Assembly: GCA_000702025.1 (NCBI GenBank)
Contig: JNKJ01000003.1
Location: 310,001-374,000, forward strand
DNA length: 64,000 bases
Source: Blautia schinkii DSM 10518
GTDB taxonomy: Bacteria > Bacillota > Clostridia > Lachnospirales > Lachnospiraceae
Reading direction: 5' to 3'
Below, one piece after another: positions 9,964-38,566 of this stretch (positions are counted from its first letter, which is position 1; each line of letters opens with the position of its first letter). Below the pieces are notes generated by a model. It was not told the DNA's origin and searched no databases. It saw only the letters and a program-made list of their open reading frames with translations. The position numbers were made by a program, and so were the translations under genes.

Positions 9964-15575
<5,612 letters not shown>

Positions 15576-17429: not shown

Positions 17430-17544
17430 CCAGCGTGCCCAACAGGGGGAGTTCGAGGGGGCATTCGGGCTTCGCAACTCTGAGATTGCCCCCTCGAACC
17501 GGCCTTCCAACTTCGCAGCTCTGCGCTCTCTTCCCCCTATTGGG
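17430..17544 (+). repeat. Dispersed palindromic repeat, copy A
   Basis: Core 17430-17498 is nearly identical to copies at 36541-36610 (inverted) and 37025-37093. An inner 13-bp perfect stem GTTCGAGGGGGCA / TGCCCCCTCGAAC (17451-17463, 17487-17499) encloses a GC-rich loop; an outer stem pairs CCCAACAGGGGGA (17438-17450) with TCCCCCTATTGGG (17532-17544, one mismatch). The outer arm covers the stop end of the truncated Rpn gene. The rest of 17280-17429 holds no gene I can support. Looks like a miniature mobile or REP-like element. Confidence 0.85.
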
Positions 17545-26594: not shown

Positions 26595-27110
26595 CCCATT
26601 TCAAATGGAGATCTAACTTTAACCCCTCCGGGGTATTTCTCTGGTTCGCCAAAGGCGGGGTTCCGCAGCACCACGTTTACTGGTTGCCTTCTAAAGGAGG
26701 CTCTACTACTTTCTTCCGTCTTCTAGCTTATCATTTTCTTCTGGTTCTTGAATATACTTCAAGATAGTCTCTTCGTTCACATTTCCTATTGTCAAAACAT
26801 AATATCCCCTTGCCCCAAAATGACGGTCTTCCCATTTCTTTCGGTATTCCGGATGTCTGTCGAACAGCATTAATGTACTCTTGCCTTTCAAATATGACAT
26901 AGTTTCCCCATACATTATCTTTCTTCTATACTTGGGGATAAACACAATGTGATAGGTGCAATTCCAACGTGTATGTGTTATACTTCAATTATCCATATGG
27001 ATACCTCCTATGCTTTGATATGGCCTGCGAAACCAATATCATTATAGCATAGGAGTTTTTAATACTCTAAGCAACACTACGGCTTTGCCTGTTCCCCATC
27101 TCAGATGGGG
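26595..27110. mobile_element. Degenerate IS200-type insertion sequence
   Basis: Contains the broken TnpA at 26706-26996 and a subterminal hairpin at each side: CTCCCATTTCAAATGGAG (26595-26612) and CCCCATCTCAGATGGGG (27094-27110), the type of structure that IS200/IS605 TnpA recognises. Exact ends are not fixed. No TnpB. Between 26441 and 26595 I see nothing else. Confidence 0.7.
26706..26996 (-). pseudogene. IS200-type TnpA, internally deleted
   Basis: From ATG 26996: MDN, a TGA at the fourth codon, then ITHTRWNCTYHIVFIPKYRRK, the normal N-terminus of Y1 transposases. After KIMYGET it jumps to SYLKGKSTLMLFDRHPEYR, losing the ~45 residues that carry the HUH motif (usually DHIHMLV). The tail FGARGYYVLTIGN keeps its shape. 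Stop plus loss of HUH make it inactive; it could only be moved in trans. Confidence 0.85.
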
Positions 27111-31220: not shown

Positions 31221-33131
31221 CTACGCCTCCATTATGATCGGCAGTATCATTGGGCTTCTCTTGGTGCGTTTCCAGAGAAAATCACTGAGTGCGTCTTTGA
31301 CAACCGTCTTTATCTTGCCCCAGTCCGTAATATTGCGCTCCAGGCAGGAATCCAGCGCTTTTTCTACCACTTCGCGGGCATGGTCCATCAAATCCTCGGA
31401 TTCACGCACATACACAAAACCACGGGACACAATATCCGGTCCTGCCAGCACGACGTTGCTGTGACGCTCTAAGGTCATGACCACGATCATAATACCGTCC
31501 TCAGCCAAATGCTGGCGGTCACGCAGCACAATATTGCCTACATCGCCAACACCAAGTCCGTCTACTAAAATAGCACCCGTGTGAACGGTACCTGTGACTT
31601 CTGCACTCTGGGCATCCATCTCCAGCACATTTCCGGAGGAAAGAATGAAGATATTCTCCTTGGGGATTCCCAAATCCTCCACCACTCGTTTCTGAGCGGT
31701 CAAATGACGGTACTCTCCATGTACGGGAATCGCATATTTCGGGCGTACCAGGGAGTAAATCAGCTTAATCTCCTCCTGGCAGGCATGTCCTGATACATGG
31801 GCATCCTGGAAAATAACCTTCGCGCCCTTCATGGAAAGCTCGTTGATCACCTTTGACACTGCTTTCTCATTTCCCGGGATGGGATTTGAGCTGAAAATAA
31901 TCGTATCGTTCGGTTTAATAGTAATCTTCTTGTGGATGTTCGCTGCCATACGGGAAAGTGCTGCCATGGACTCTCCCTGGCTTCCTGTTGTGATGAGCAC
32001 CACCTTCTCATCCGGATAACTCTTCACCTGGTCAATCTCAATCAGGGTTTGGTCCGGAATGCGCAGATAACCCAGCTCCGCAGCCGTTGTGATGACATTT
32101 ACCATGCTGCGGCCCTCAACCGCTACCTTTCTCCCGAAGCGGTAAGCAGTGTTGATGATCTGCTGTACACGGTCCACATTCGATGCAAAGGTCGCAATCA
32201 ATATACGGTTATTCTTATATTCGTTAAATAAATTATCAAACACTCTGCCCACAGTCCGCTCTGACATGGTAAAGCCCGGGCGCTCCGCATTCGTACTGTC
32301 GCACATCAGGGCGAGTACGCCTTTTTTACCAATCTCTGCGAAACGCTGCAGATCAATAGCGTCGCCGAATACCGGGGTGTAATCCACCTTGAAGTCGCCG
32401 GTATGCACCACAATGCCTGCCGGAGAATAAATGGCCAGCGCTGATGCATCCTGGATACTATGGTTGGTCTTAATAAATTCAATGGAAAAATCACCGAGGT
32501 TGATGACCTGTCCGTGTTTCACTTCTTTCATCTTGGTAGAGCGCACAAGATTATGCTCTTTTAATTTATTGGTAATCAATCCTAAGGTAAGCTTGGTGGA
32601 ATAAATCGGCACATTCACTTCCTTCAGCACATAAGGAAGCGCTCCGATGTGGTCCTCATGACCATGGGTTATCACAAAGCCTTTCACCTTGGAAATATTC
32701 TCTTTTAAATAAGTTACATCCGGAATGACCAGGTCGATTCCCAGCATGTCGTCCTCCGGGAATGACAATCCACAGTCAACCACCACAATACTGTCCTCGT
32801 ACTCAAACGCGGTAATATTCAGTCCAATCTGCTCCAATCCACCCAAGGGAATGATTTTCAGTTTGGAAGCGGATTTACGTCCGCGGCGTACCGGGTTCTT
32901 CACAGGATTCTTAAATACCGGAGGTTTTGGTATATTAACCTTTGGTGTATTTGTCTTTTGTGTATTGGCCTTTTGTGTATTGGCTTTTGGTGTACTGGTA
33001 TTTTGTTTCTGCTGTGGTCTGCTCTTAAAGTTTCTCTGTCTGGTTACCTGCTTTTTAGCTCCGCCCGCAGGATTATTCTGGCTTCCGCCGTTGCTTTCAT
33101 TGCCGTTGTTACTGTTATTTTCGTTCTTCAA
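31221..33131 (-). CDS. rnj: Ribonuclease J
   Basis: 636 residues. The beta-lactamase/beta-CASP nuclease has H156-x-H158-x-D160-H161 (THGHEDHIG), HTGDFKVD, CDSTNAERPG and the VHGEYRHL C-terminal motif. It starts with TTG at 33131 behind GGAGGTG. Residues 1-85 are a disordered Asn/Gln/Lys/Thr-rich extension with a run of TPKANTQKA-like repeats encoded by an 18-bp DNA repeat, longer than in Bacillus RNase J1 (555 aa). Exo- and endonuclease for mRNA decay and rRNA maturation. Only one RNase J gene is in the window. Confidence 0.95.
   Translation of the reverse strand: MKNENNSNNGNESNGGSQNNPAGGAKKQVTRQRNFKSRPQQKQNTSTPKANTQKANTQKTNTPKVNIPKPPVFKNPVKNPVRRGRKSASKLKIIPLGGLEQIGLNITAFEYEDSIVVVDCGLSFPEDDMLGIDLVIPDVTYLKENISKVKGFVITHGHEDHIGALPYVLKEVNVPIYSTKLTLGLITNKLKEHNLVRSTKMKEVKHGQVINLGDFSIEFIKTNHSIQDASALAIYSPAGIVVHTGDFKVDYTPVFGDAIDLQRFAEIGKKGVLALMCDSTNAERPGFTMSERTVGRVFDNLFNEYKNNRILIATFASNVDRVQQIINTAYRFGRKVAVEGRSMVNVITTAAELGYLRIPDQTLIEIDQVKSYPDEKVVLITTGSQGESMAALSRMAANIHKKITIKPNDTIIFSSNPIPGNEKAVSKVINELSMKGAKVIFQDAHVSGHACQEEIKLIYSLVRPKYAIPVHGEYRHLTAQKRVVEDLGIPKENIFILSSGNVLEMDAQSAEVTGTVHTGAILVDGLGVGDVGNIVLRDRQHLAEDGIMIVVMTLERHSNVVLAGPDIVSRGFVYVRESEDLMDHAREVVEKALDSCLERNITDWGKIKTVVKDALSDFLWKRTKRSPMILPIIMEA
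32932..33012. repeat. Short tandem repeat in the RNase J extension
   Basis: About four copies of an 15-18-bp unit (TTTTGTGTATTGGCC type) encode the NTQKA/NTPKV repeats. Length changes stay in frame. Confidence 0.75.
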
Positions 33132-36208: not shown

Positions 36209-36445
36209 ATGAAAACAGCAAAAATCTCACTGAACTCTATTGATAAAGTGAAAGCATTTGTGAATGAAATCAGCAAATTTGACTGCGACTTCGATTTAGT
36301 ATCCGGAAGATATGTCATCGATGCCAAATCCATTATGGGCATTTTCAGTTTAGACTTATCCAAACCGATTGACCTGAATATCCATGCAGACGGCGCTGCA
36401 CTTGACAGTGTTATGGAAATCATTAACAAATATGTGACTGAATAA
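36209..36445 (+). CDS. HPr-family protein lacking the phosphorylatable histidine
   Basis: 78 residues. The second half is plain HPr (SKFDCDFDL, then AKSIMGIFSLDL at ~39-50, where S41 aligns with Ser46 of HPr, and the final helix MEIINKYVTE). The GIHARPA loop with His15 is absent: LNSIDKVKAF stands in its place and is about two residues shorter. So it cannot take phosphate from enzyme I, but might still be phosphorylated by HPr kinase on the serine, like Crh of Bacillus. Single-gene unit with its own promoter and terminator. Confidence 0.88.
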   Translation: MKTAKISLNSIDKVKAFVNEISKFDCDFDLVSGRYVIDAKSIMGIFSLDLSKPIDLNIHADGAALDSVMEIINKYVTE

Positions 36446-36469
36446 TCATTCATGCACGACTGATTATCG

Positions 36470-36501
36470 GAGGAACTGTTCGCAGTTCCTCTTTTTCTTG
36501 C
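36470..36501 (+). terminator. Terminator of the HPr-like gene
   Basis: GAGGAACTG-TTCG-CAGTTCCTC, a perfect 9-bp stem with a UUCG loop followed by TTTTTC, 25 bases after the stop. Confidence 0.92.
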
Positions 36502-36540
36502 TCTTTTTTATACTACGCTTTTCAAGATGTTTCGAGATGT

Positions 36541-36610
36541 TTCGAGGGGGCAATCTCAGAGTTGCGAAAGCCCGAATGCCCCCTCGAGCTCCCCCTGTTG
36601 GGCACGCTGG
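36541..36610 (-). repeat. Dispersed palindromic repeat, copy B
   Basis: Inverted relative to copies A and C. Contains the same TTCGAGGGGGCAA / TGCCCCCTCGA stem, and TCCCCCTGTTGGGCACGCTGG at its inner edge. One extra base (GCGAAAGCCC) distinguishes it from copy C. It forms the left end of the satellite block. Confidence 0.9.
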
Positions 36611-37024
36611 TGTGTGTTTTACTTGGTTGGTGGGAAGATATAAGGTGCTTTCTGGCCTCTTGTATCCACAATAACATAGTGGCACAGCATGGCACAACGT
36701 GCCACTGCATGGCGCAGCATGCCACAACATGCTACAGCATAGCACAACATGACACAGCATGCCACAACATGCTACAGCATAGCACAACATGACACAGCAT
36801 GCCACAACATGCTACAGCATAGCGCAACATGACACAACATGGTGCAACATGACACAGCATAGCGCAACATGACACAGCATAGCGCAACATGGCACAGCAT
36901 AGCGCAACATGGCACAGCATGGCGCAACATGTACTACATGGCGCAACATACTACAGCATACCACAACATGGTGCAACATGCTACAGTATGCTACATGCAT
37001 ACCACAACATGGCGCAATATACGC
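36611..37024. repeat. 10-bp CATG satellite
   Basis: From about 36676 to 37020 a decanucleotide (R)CA(A/G)CATG(N)C repeats about 34 times, mainly alternating ACAGCATRGC and ACAACATGNC; a 40-bp higher-order unit recurs at 36731-36850. It gives long open frames in several phases on both strands simply because a 10-bp unit cycles through frames; none has a ribosome site or a plausible protein. First ~65 bases (36611-36675) are non-repetitive. Confidence 0.92.
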
Positions 37025-37122
37025 CCAGCGTGCCCAACAGGGGGAGCTCGAGGGGGCATTCGGGCTTCGCAACTCTGAGATTGCCCCCTCGAATACCGCA
37101 CCTCTGAGATTGCCCCCTCGAA
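37025..37122 (+). repeat. Dispersed palindromic repeat, copy C with partial duplication
   Basis: 37025-37093 matches copy A and, inverted, copy B. The last part (CTCTGAGATTGCCCCCTCG) is repeated at 37102-37120. It forms the right end of the satellite block and lies 40 bases from the thiI stop. Confidence 0.9.
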
Positions 37123-37162
37123 ATCACACTCATGCGCATTTTATTTTGCGACTCATTTGATA

Positions 37163-38344
37163 TCAGCTGATGTCAATAATTTCTGTGCTGTTGAGGGCTT
37201 CTTGCATAAGCTGTTCGATTTTTTCTTCTAGTTTTGTTTCGGAGCGGTGAATTACGTTCAGGTTGGGCTTTGTTACGGGGTGCTTGGCTACGAAGATGGT
37301 GCAACAGTCCTCAAATGGCAGGATGGATGTTTCGAAGGTGTCGATTTTCTTGGAAATCTCTACAATCTCCTGCTTGTCAAATCCGATTACGGGGCGGTAT
37401 ACGGGCATGGTGCATACTTCGTTGGTGGCCGCCAGGCTCTGGAGTGTCTGGCTTGCTACTTGTCCGATGCTTTCTCCGGTTATCAGGCCCAGGCATCCGC
37501 TCTTTTGTGCGAAATGTTCGGCTATGCGCATCATGTAGCGGCGCATGATGATGGTCAGTTCTTCGTGGGGACACTGGTCATAGATATAGAGCTGGATATC
37601 CGTAAAGTTTACCACATGAAGGCGGATTGGTCCACTGTATTTTGCCACCAGCTTTGCCAGGTCCACTACTTTTTGTTTGGCTCTGTCGCTTGTATAGGGT
37701 GGCGCGTGGAAGTAAACTGCGTCGATTTTTACTCCGCGCTTGGCAATCATGTAACCCGCAACCGGGCTGTCGATTCCGCCGGAAAGCAGGAGCATGGCTT
37801 TGCCGTTTGTGCCTACAGGCATCCCGCCCGGGCCTTTGATGGTCTCGGAATATACGTAGATTTTCTCACGGATTTCCACGGAAAGTGTGAGCTGGGGTTC
37901 GTGGACATCTACGCTTGCCTCGGGAAATGCTTCCAGGATTTTTCCGCCAAGCTCTGCGCTCACTTCCATGGAGGTCATGGGATATGTTTTTTTAGCGCGT
38001 CTTGTATATACTTTGAAGGTGCCGTTATATCCCGGATGACGGGACTGCATATAGCTTACCACATCCGCGGCCATCTGCTCAAAGCCTTGTTCCTCGTAGA
38101 TGACTACAGGGCTGATTCCTACGATGCCGAATACTTTTTTCAAAGCTTCCACAGCCTCGTCGAAGTCGTATTCTTCTGGGCAGAATACATAGACGCGGCC
38201 CTGTTCCTTTTTGACCTCGAATTCACCCTCCACATGGGAGAGGGCAATTCTCATCTGTTTTACAAGAGCATCTTCAAAAAGGTATCTGTTTTTTCCTTTG
38301 ATAGCGATTTCTGCGTATTTTATCAAAAATGCATGATATAACAT
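37163..38344 (-). CDS. thiI: tRNA 4-thiouridine synthase ThiI
   Basis: 393 residues: N-terminal ferredoxin-like/THUMP domain (~1-165) and a C-terminal PP-loop adenylation domain with LLLSGGIDSPVAGYM (~186-200). There is no C-terminal rhodanese domain, as in the short Firmicute ThiI. C-terminal LPFEDCCTIFVAKHP keeps the conserved Cys. Makes s4U8 in tRNA and may supply sulfur for thiazole. Sulfur donor is presumably the cysteine desulfurase just upstream. RBS AAGGAG. Confidence 0.95.
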   Translation of the reverse strand: MLYHAFLIKYAEIAIKGKNRYLFEDALVKQMRIALSHVEGEFEVKKEQGRVYVFCPEEYDFDEAVEALKKVFGIVGISPVVIYEEQGFEQMAADVVSYMQSRHPGYNGTFKVYTRRAKKTYPMTSMEVSAELGGKILEAFPEASVDVHEPQLTLSVEIREKIYVYSETIKGPGGMPVGTNGKAMLLLSGGIDSPVAGYMIAKRGVKIDAVYFHAPPYTSDRAKQKVVDLAKLVAKYSGPIRLHVVNFTDIQLYIYDQCPHEELTIIMRRYMMRIAEHFAQKSGCLGLITGESIGQVASQTLQSLAATNEVCTMPVYRPVIGFDKQEIVEISKKIDTFETSILPFEDCCTIFVAKHPVTKPNLNVIHRSETKLEEKIEQLMQEALNSTEIIDIS

Positions 38345-38412: not shown

Positions 38413-38566
38413 CACAGCGTTACAGCGTTAGCGGCAAGTGCGTGAATAACGGTACAGCGCATCATAAATTCAGGTACGTACATAACGGCACAGCGGGGCA
38501 TGGATTCAGTGGCGTGCGTAGCGGCGCAGCGGGGCACGGATTCAGTGGCGTGCGTAGCGGCGCAGC
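38413..38566. repeat. 36-bp tandem repeat at the 3' end of the desulfurase gene
   Basis: Units at 38449-38484, 38485-38520 and 38521-38556 plus a 10-base partial (38557-38566), and a decayed unit before 38449. The last full unit covers the final codons and stop of the cysteine desulfurase (RRYARH, stop at 38542), so the array looks like repeated duplication of the gene's own 3' end into the gap before thiI. Confidence 0.9.

Follow-up and report, generated by a model that had tools for sequence, protein, structure and literature searches.

Facing copies of a dispersed non-coding repeat with a putative pseudoknotted triplex fold bracket a decamer array in Blautia schinkii

The block at positions 36541–37122 of the window (the whole stretch of 64,000 nucleotides analysed here) is, on balance, probably a facing pair of dispersed non-coding DNA elements that would fold as a pseudoknotted triplex and whose flanks are unstable. 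These elements, here termed heads, are scattered through the genome and share one architecture, in which a pseudoknot helix (P2) and a third strand covary; they recur as facing pairs, their 3' tails are rich in repeats, and at a few orthologous places they vary in presence and in length. The preliminary description of this DNA had interpreted the block as a single element consisting of inverted palindromic ends and a phased array, an interpretation that is partly supported.

The block in the window

Head B, which is the "palindrome" of the preliminary description, is a full copy at 36541–36610 (+), and a second full copy, head C (37025–37093, −), faces it, so that the decamer array occupies the 3' tail position of head C. 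The two near-identical inverted arms of approximately 70 nt that had been described around the array are indeed present; they differ in length by 1 nt and are 100% identical over 43 nt (36568–36610 and 37025–37067) and over a further 28 nt (36541–36568 and 37066–37093). With coordinates read from the sequence, the P1 stem of head B pairs 36544–36552 with 36577–36585, its third strand lies at 36589–36595, and its P2 helix pairs 36564–36566 with 36605–36607 and 36570–36573 with 36600–36603, all on the (+) strand. This head is followed by a G/T-rich tail (36611–36677, +) and then by the array of about 33 units (36678–37016). Directly upstream of head C lies a truncated 5' half of a head (37097–37122, −), a partial duplication of which similar cases are found beside other heads, and a third full head of the window (17430–17498, −) has no facing partner.

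The genes on either side end towards the block. The 3' end of a 78-aa ORF (36209–36445, +) precedes head B, with a terminator-like hairpin, read by eye, at about 36469–36497 after the end of this gene at 36445, and head C is preceded by the 3' end of an ORF at 37163–38344 (−), which we take to be thiI-like, following the preliminary description. The block does lie between a terminator-like hairpin and the thiI-like stop, as had been proposed, and its lack of coding content was likewise borne out, the longest ORF in the interior between the heads (locus L225) being 62 aa, a length reached in 41 of 100 shuffles.

The array was reported by TRF as two overlapping rows with scores of 349 and 268. 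A spaced CATG pattern (≤2 mismatches) matched the window 40 times against 6.9 expected, a number reached in none of 100 shuffles, and a few of these matches fall outside the array. Between 36678 and 37020 there are 32 CAT(G/A) sites, mostly in 10-nt steps. The earlier statement that CATG recurs in phase every 10 bases holds for most of this stretch, but 23 of the 32 sites read CATG and nine CATA, a unit is missed at 36698, and the phase is broken by a 9-nt step at 36928–36937 and by an irregular stretch at 36977–36998. No Rfam family reached its gathering score in the window, which contains three full heads, and 19 weak matches below that score were obtained in 36500–37200, mostly from miRNA models on the array; a known RNA family was consequently rejected as the identity of the block.

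Architecture of the head

The head, of about 65–70 nt, is composed, in this order, of the purine strand of P1, a conserved loop (CTCNNAGTTGCGAAGCCCG or close), the pyrimidine strand of P1, a short turn, a pyrimidine run, and GGGCACGC or close. P1 spans approximately 9–15 bp with the purine strand first, and its loop measures 17–27 nt in the heads tabulated. Bases GCG..GCCC of the loop pair with GGGC.CGC downstream, forming the pseudoknot. Most of the 153 unique heads belong to one of two P2 classes, GCG/GCCC with GGGC/CGC (101 heads) and GCG/GGCC with GGCC/CGC (24), with minor classes ACG with CGT (6+1) and CCG with CGG (5+2). Hence, P2 covaries (the outer pair is G-C, A-T or C-G, and the second pair C-G or G-C), with matched classes in 139 heads and 14 lacking a full match, counts that are inflated by the mutual relatedness of the heads. 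RNAalifold recovered P2 unprompted; it missed P1, for which the alignment used was out of register, and proposed an additional helix of three pairs, probably a false one.

The pyrimidine run mirrors the purine strand of P1, as in GAGAAGGGGA with CTCTTCCCCT, GGGGGAGAGGAG with CCCCCTCTCCTT, GAGGGGGAAAG with CTCCCCCTTTC and others. In the parallel register, this correspondence scored 6.79 against 4.93 ± 0.18 for shuffled partners, with none of 1000 shuffles as good, and in the antiparallel register 4.49 against 4.14 ± 0.16; the set comprised 70 different purine strands out of the 153 unique heads, imperfectly trimmed, and the figures are inflated since the heads are related to one another and the shuffles keep this kinship. 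By virtue of this parallel covariation, one strand of the head contains three successive blocks related by a triplet code. In a tally of 101 non-redundant heads, with the register set by G alone, A lies opposite T in 94 of the 149 flanked positions (63%, against 41% in shuffles), opposite A in 28 (19%, no commoner than the 21% of shuffles), opposite C in 25 (17%; shuffled fraction 0.34) and opposite G in two (shuffled fraction 0.04), and G faces C at 424 of 446 positions (95%; shuffled 86%). Heads near the end of a locus were excluded from the architecture listing and from the upstream-hairpin, triplet and mismatch counts. Subfamilies L269 and L351 have A opposite A, and the heads of Patescibacteria have the same architecture as those of Blautia.

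This architecture, including the covariation of the third strand, is well supported by the sequence comparison, and the description of the head as a plain palindrome does not survive it, as a pseudoknot and a covarying third strand are present in addition. Copying gives direct or inverted repeats, and a mirror repeat, being neither of these, does not readily arise from it, while a triplet code does make one; selection on a triple helix would therefore be its simplest cause. That the mirror symmetry covaries in many subfamilies and in two phyla is thus evidence for a selected, putatively triplex-like fold, which, we infer, may form in DNA in vivo. On the other hand, the loop is more tightly conserved than a model of instability would need, which hints at a binding partner.

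Comparison with known triplex-forming repeats

According to the text of PMC4666352, the BoxC/PIT/TM-ECO repeats resemble the heads in being scattered, intergenic, G/C-rich and able to form an intrastrand triplex, and also in their inverted pairs joining two subtypes, their local instability and the lack of any reported adjoining mobility gene. The same text reports TM-ECO from 262 proteobacterial genomes, with inverted pairs of A and B types in five of five cases in E. coli MG1655, and describes triplexes in vitro, instability and no transposase found nearby (Holder et al. 2015, PMC4666352); in vivo footprinting, as given there, did not support a stable triplex. TM-ECO has the order C-rich, N3-6, G-rich, N3, G-rich (class II; PMC4666352). 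The order of blocks in the heads is reversed, being class I on the G-rich strand and class III on the other, and the heads differ further in their conserved hairpin loop of about 17–27 nt, which pairs downstream as a pseudoknot. The TM-ECO pattern CCCTCNCCC-N3-6-GGGNGAGGG-N3-GGGNGAGGG, with up to two substitutions allowed, had no matches in 390 sequences (loci and window; 1,765,578 nt).

The head is best read as a pseudoknotted relative-in-kind of the BoxC/PIT/TM-ECO repeats, and the heads as an apparently undescribed variant of known intrastrand-triplex repeats with putative folding, mobility and function. Among the matches listed in a search of open-licence papers, which does not prove absence, none had a title describing an element of this kind from Blautia or Patescibacteria, and Blautia is unmentioned in the main text of PMC4666352 and PMC3733652. 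The ITxF search is described in PMC4666352 as limited to loops of 1–6 nt. The P1 loops of the heads (17–27 nt) lie outside this limit, so that a survey of this kind would miss them, and the same is suggested for triplex surveys restricted to short loops in general.

Distribution of the head and its possible mobility

In its own genome, the 70-nt head has 26 near-full and eight partial matches, and 13 of the near-full ones show no difference along the matched length, from which a recent amplification of the heads may be inferred. The decamer array has one full match, which is itself, and one 25-nt match at chance level. Accordingly, the proposal of a single element stands as regards the facing heads, which recur (23 of 23 pairs, see below), but not as regards the decamer, which is not a constant part (one full match against 26 near-full heads); similarly, the suggested link between array and palindromes holds in that heads elsewhere flank repeat-rich stretches, but these never consist of this decamer.

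The search of related genomes that the preliminary description had called for matched the 70-mer at the DNA level in 11 of 61 genomes and, using a covariance model, detected the head in 32 of 64 genomes of Blautia, the own genome being included in both counts. No head was found in 249 other genomes of the family (best 20 candidates per genome scored) or in 397 other genomes of the phylum sample (best 13 candidates per genome scored), under stricter filters with which weak copies may be missed. A scan for the head yielded at least 114 stretches, 80 of them among the matches listed. Six listed matches were not labelled Blautia, Lachnospiraceae, Clostridia or Eubacteriales, and five of these have the full head architecture; the five derive from four genomes, three of which are named Patescibacteria or Kerfeldbacteria, and at E ≤ 0.01 the four genomes have 2, 6, 9 and 1 matches, the weakest of which are unconfirmed. 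In a sample of the phylum of UBA10001 (Patescibacteria), matches were obtained in six of 379 genomes, one being the genome used as centre, and additional head variants occur in other genomes of this sample. A woesearchaeal match (L280) has no stem and was attributed to chance, and the weak matches L368, L372 and L373 in CPR genomes were not confirmed as heads (L362 and L370 lay outside this check).

Some copies show additional features. In genome G622, three heads (L382, L385 and L387) lack the third strand or are cut short and are possibly decayed copies. In two non-Blautia genomes, another long hairpin, parts of which are conserved (CCAAACGAATTTGC and close), follows the head (L242, L279, L321, L361 and L364). 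Many Blautia heads have a small variable hairpin and then a GGGAAAACC-like linker 5–25 nt upstream of P1, which are perhaps part of the element.

A phage, plasmid or viral origin of the head was not supported, as blastn gave no match in phages and plasmids and neither the end pattern nor the core of the head had an exact match in viral contigs. It is possible, though only tentatively proposed, that the head serves as the recognition end for mobile DNA of a class so far unrecognised, alike in Blautia and Patescibacteria, in which a single-stranded intermediate would fold into a pseudoknotted triple helix and be read in this form by an enzyme. If this were true, the head would represent a naturally occurring DNA triplex that selection maintains in living cells, where the role of DNA triplexes is an old open question.

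An unlikely explanation is that the head is a non-autonomous element of the REP/BIME kind, mobilised in single-stranded form by a dedicated transposase, either Y1 (RAYT-type) or another, that recognises the folded head. As described in PMC2817692 and PMC3733652, REP/BIME and RAYT systems likewise have palindromic intergenic repeats, often in alternating orientation, and the conserved loop with a variable stem, the facing pairs and the subtypes of the heads resemble REP/BIME (PMC2817692). Additionally, in the genome with the most matches (G069; 45 matches), the L169 head (1335–1406) lies about 300 nt upstream of a decayed Y1/RAYT-like gene (~1700–2410). However, a rough calculation by hand puts the probability of one such head–Y1 neighbour arising by chance at a few per cent, and the other ten Y1/RAYT-like regions (L170–L179), some of which are cut by contig ends, have no head. 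PF01797 had no match in any of the four head-bearing genomes outside Blautia, which are incomplete MAGs, and Y1 (PF01797) was absent at E ≤ 1e-5 from some head-rich Blautia genomes (7–12 heads; e.g. G029 and G077). RAYT as the mover of the heads is for these reasons not supported. Moreover, REPs are palindromes of 20–40 bp (PMC2817692, PMC3733652), whereas the heads measure about 65 nt, have a third strand and a pseudoknot and show no steady link to Y1. The window itself contains a Y1 transposase (PF01797) fragment at 26745–26903 (−).

DNA or RNA

RNA helices normally tolerate G.U far more than A.C mismatches. Isolated P1 mismatches (those with two Watson-Crick pairs on either side) comprise 10 G.T, 15 A.C and 10 others among 1173 positions of 147 unique heads. 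As this stricter count has no G.U excess, DNA is favoured over RNA, and it appears moderately likely that the head acts as DNA. In the unfiltered tally, which includes helix ends, there are 62 G.T, 42 A.C and 59 other mismatches among 1427 positions.

That excess of G.T over A.C would suit an RNA element, namely a 3'-UTR pseudoknot with a pyrimidine triple helix, which would stabilise the ends of mRNAs and for which RNA H-type pseudoknots with a triple helix provide precedents (described in PMC5696562 and PMC6061858). The position of the heads is also compatible with this: 18 of the 26 own heads (19 once the window copy is corrected) and 86 of 117 others share the strand of the gene to their 5' side, and the median distances to the 5'-side gene are 43 and 95 nt, respectively, as judged from crude ORF calls by which 18 of 130 other heads and one of the 26 own heads fall inside called ORFs of >150 aa, and in which a spurious ORF masked the 78-aa gene at head B. 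Nevertheless, the RNA explanation is quite unlikely, given the isolated mismatches (10 G.T to 15 A.C); furthermore, 13 of 22 pairs lie between co-directional genes, which makes one head of each antisense to its neighbour, and three own heads (L010, L011 and L019) precede a gene start, as read by eye.

The order on the G-rich strand of reverse-Hoogsteen, purine and pyrimidine blocks corresponds to class I as given in PMC4666352. The pyrimidine motif of the other strand could form in RNA.

Tails, repeats and local instability

The 300 nt on the 3' side of the 26 own heads contain 11.7% C (8.8% in the first 50 nt) against 18.3% upstream, although some of these tails extend into the next gene. Tandem repeats lie within 300 nt in 14 of the 26 tails and in three of the 26 upstream sides (Fisher p 0.001, with the array of the window pair counted twice); without the window pair, 12 of 24 tails contain them, compared with 17 of 206 tiles of the window (p 2e-6). 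Within their first 60 nt, 25 of 167 tails, which are mutually related, carry the motif GTTGTGG, compared to a mean of 3.1 and a maximum of 8 in 300 shuffles, and the decamer unit contains, on its minus strand, GTTGTG, which resembles this motif of the tails of other heads. Because the tails are repeat-rich and enriched in a motif that the decamer resembles, the array is best seen as one expanded tail. Further tandem repeats of the 64-kb window start at 13319, 29550, 32926, 38446, 41472 and 51893; one of them lies within the start of a long ORF (31221–33131), and the 36-mer repeat at 38446–38566 spans the end of the ORF upstream of thiI.

The array had also been proposed to be part of one functional element that, through CATG phased every 10 bp, bends DNA or binds a protein. 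The 10-nt spacing across long stretches and the facing arms fit this proposal, but the array has a single full match in the genome, its phase is broken, and a spacing of about one DNA turn is not a conserved feature, as the repeats of other tails have periods of 11, 12, 14, 16, 17, 19, 20, 38, 64 and 72 nt; the proposal is therefore very improbable.

Under the preferred reading of a pseudoknotted triplex, a strand exposed in replication, transcription or repair would allow the head to fold into a hairpin, the loop of which would pair with downstream DNA as a pseudoknot, and the intervening run would lie along the hairpin as a third strand, in a purine motif (class I) on the G-rich strand or a pyrimidine motif (class III) on the C-rich strand. 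The folded head may then stall polymerases, and stuttering beside it may have made the decamer array from the tail motif; polymerase arrest, stuttering and mobility are all presumed here. In a common gut genus, the head family offers a ready set of natural mutants with which folding, arrest of polymerases and instability of repeats could be examined.

Orthologous places were compared, and the empty sites that had been asked for were found for one pair: two relatives lack the L092 pair at the corresponding position, which measures 109 and 80 nt there compared to approximately 600 nt. In the case of the L093 pair, the relative L133 retains one head only. Its junction reads GGCGTG, letters that also occur at the 3' border of this head and in the outer repeat carried by another relative, L131, and the loss may have occurred by microhomology deletion. 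The spacing of orthologous pairs also varies (504, 339 and 339 nt in one set; 366, 217 and 217 nt in another). Flanks that adjoin in one genome stand apart in G016 and G004, which is weak evidence for rearrangement beside heads, given that no control loci were compared, that repeats mislead in both assemblies and that the G004 break has N beside the head.

Facing pairs

The bracketed, facing arrangement recurs. In all 23 distinct pairs of heads that neighbour each other within 700 nt among the sequences examined, the two heads are turned towards each other with their 3' ends inward, and the pairs combine GCCC with GGCC (12 pairs), GCCC with GCCC (nine) or GGCC with GGCC (two). In the list of pairs, L096 equals L317 and L051 equals L243. 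As flank similarity identifies three sets of orthologues among the 23 (L050/L053/L054, L057/L099/L096 and L051/L098), there are at most about 18 separate pair loci. The window pair is the sole facing pair of its genome within the loci examined. Pair interiors measure 105–504 nt with longest ORFs of 14–72 aa, and at least 16 of 100 shuffles have ORFs as long for 21 of the 23 pairs (eight for L354 and four for L093). The genes flanking 22 pairs (the pair L283 was left out) are convergent in nine cases, co-directional in 13 and divergent in none, and the notion that pairs are solely the 3' ends of convergent genes was rejected in view of the 13 co-directional cases. Two wide pairs considered as an autonomous, gene-bearing form (L089 and L088; 2.6 and 3.2 kb) were likewise dismissed, since they contain apparently ordinary host genes.

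A conventional MITE, carrying terminal inverted repeats and mobilised by a DDE transposase, would account for facing ends around a non-coding interior of 105–504 nt, but is the least probable explanation, as 24 of the 26 own heads lack a facing partner within loci of ±1.5 kb and no target-site duplication was seen by eye at the two sites compared, where repeats blur the boundaries.

Pneumococcal BOX elements, as described in PMC3049150, are similar to the head pairs in having two end modules around variable tandem inner modules and in varying in length between strains. They differ in that the BOX inner modules are one family, whereas the inner repeats of head pairs differ by place and the ends are the putative pseudoknot-triplex heads (PMC3049150). 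In the B. luti-like group, a tandem repeat of about 33 nt (TTTCCCTTTC.GGGGGACACTTTGGC.TGGGC) lies 5' of heads (L050, L092, L093 and L131), and at L092 an inverted counterpart of this repeat is found on the opposite side.
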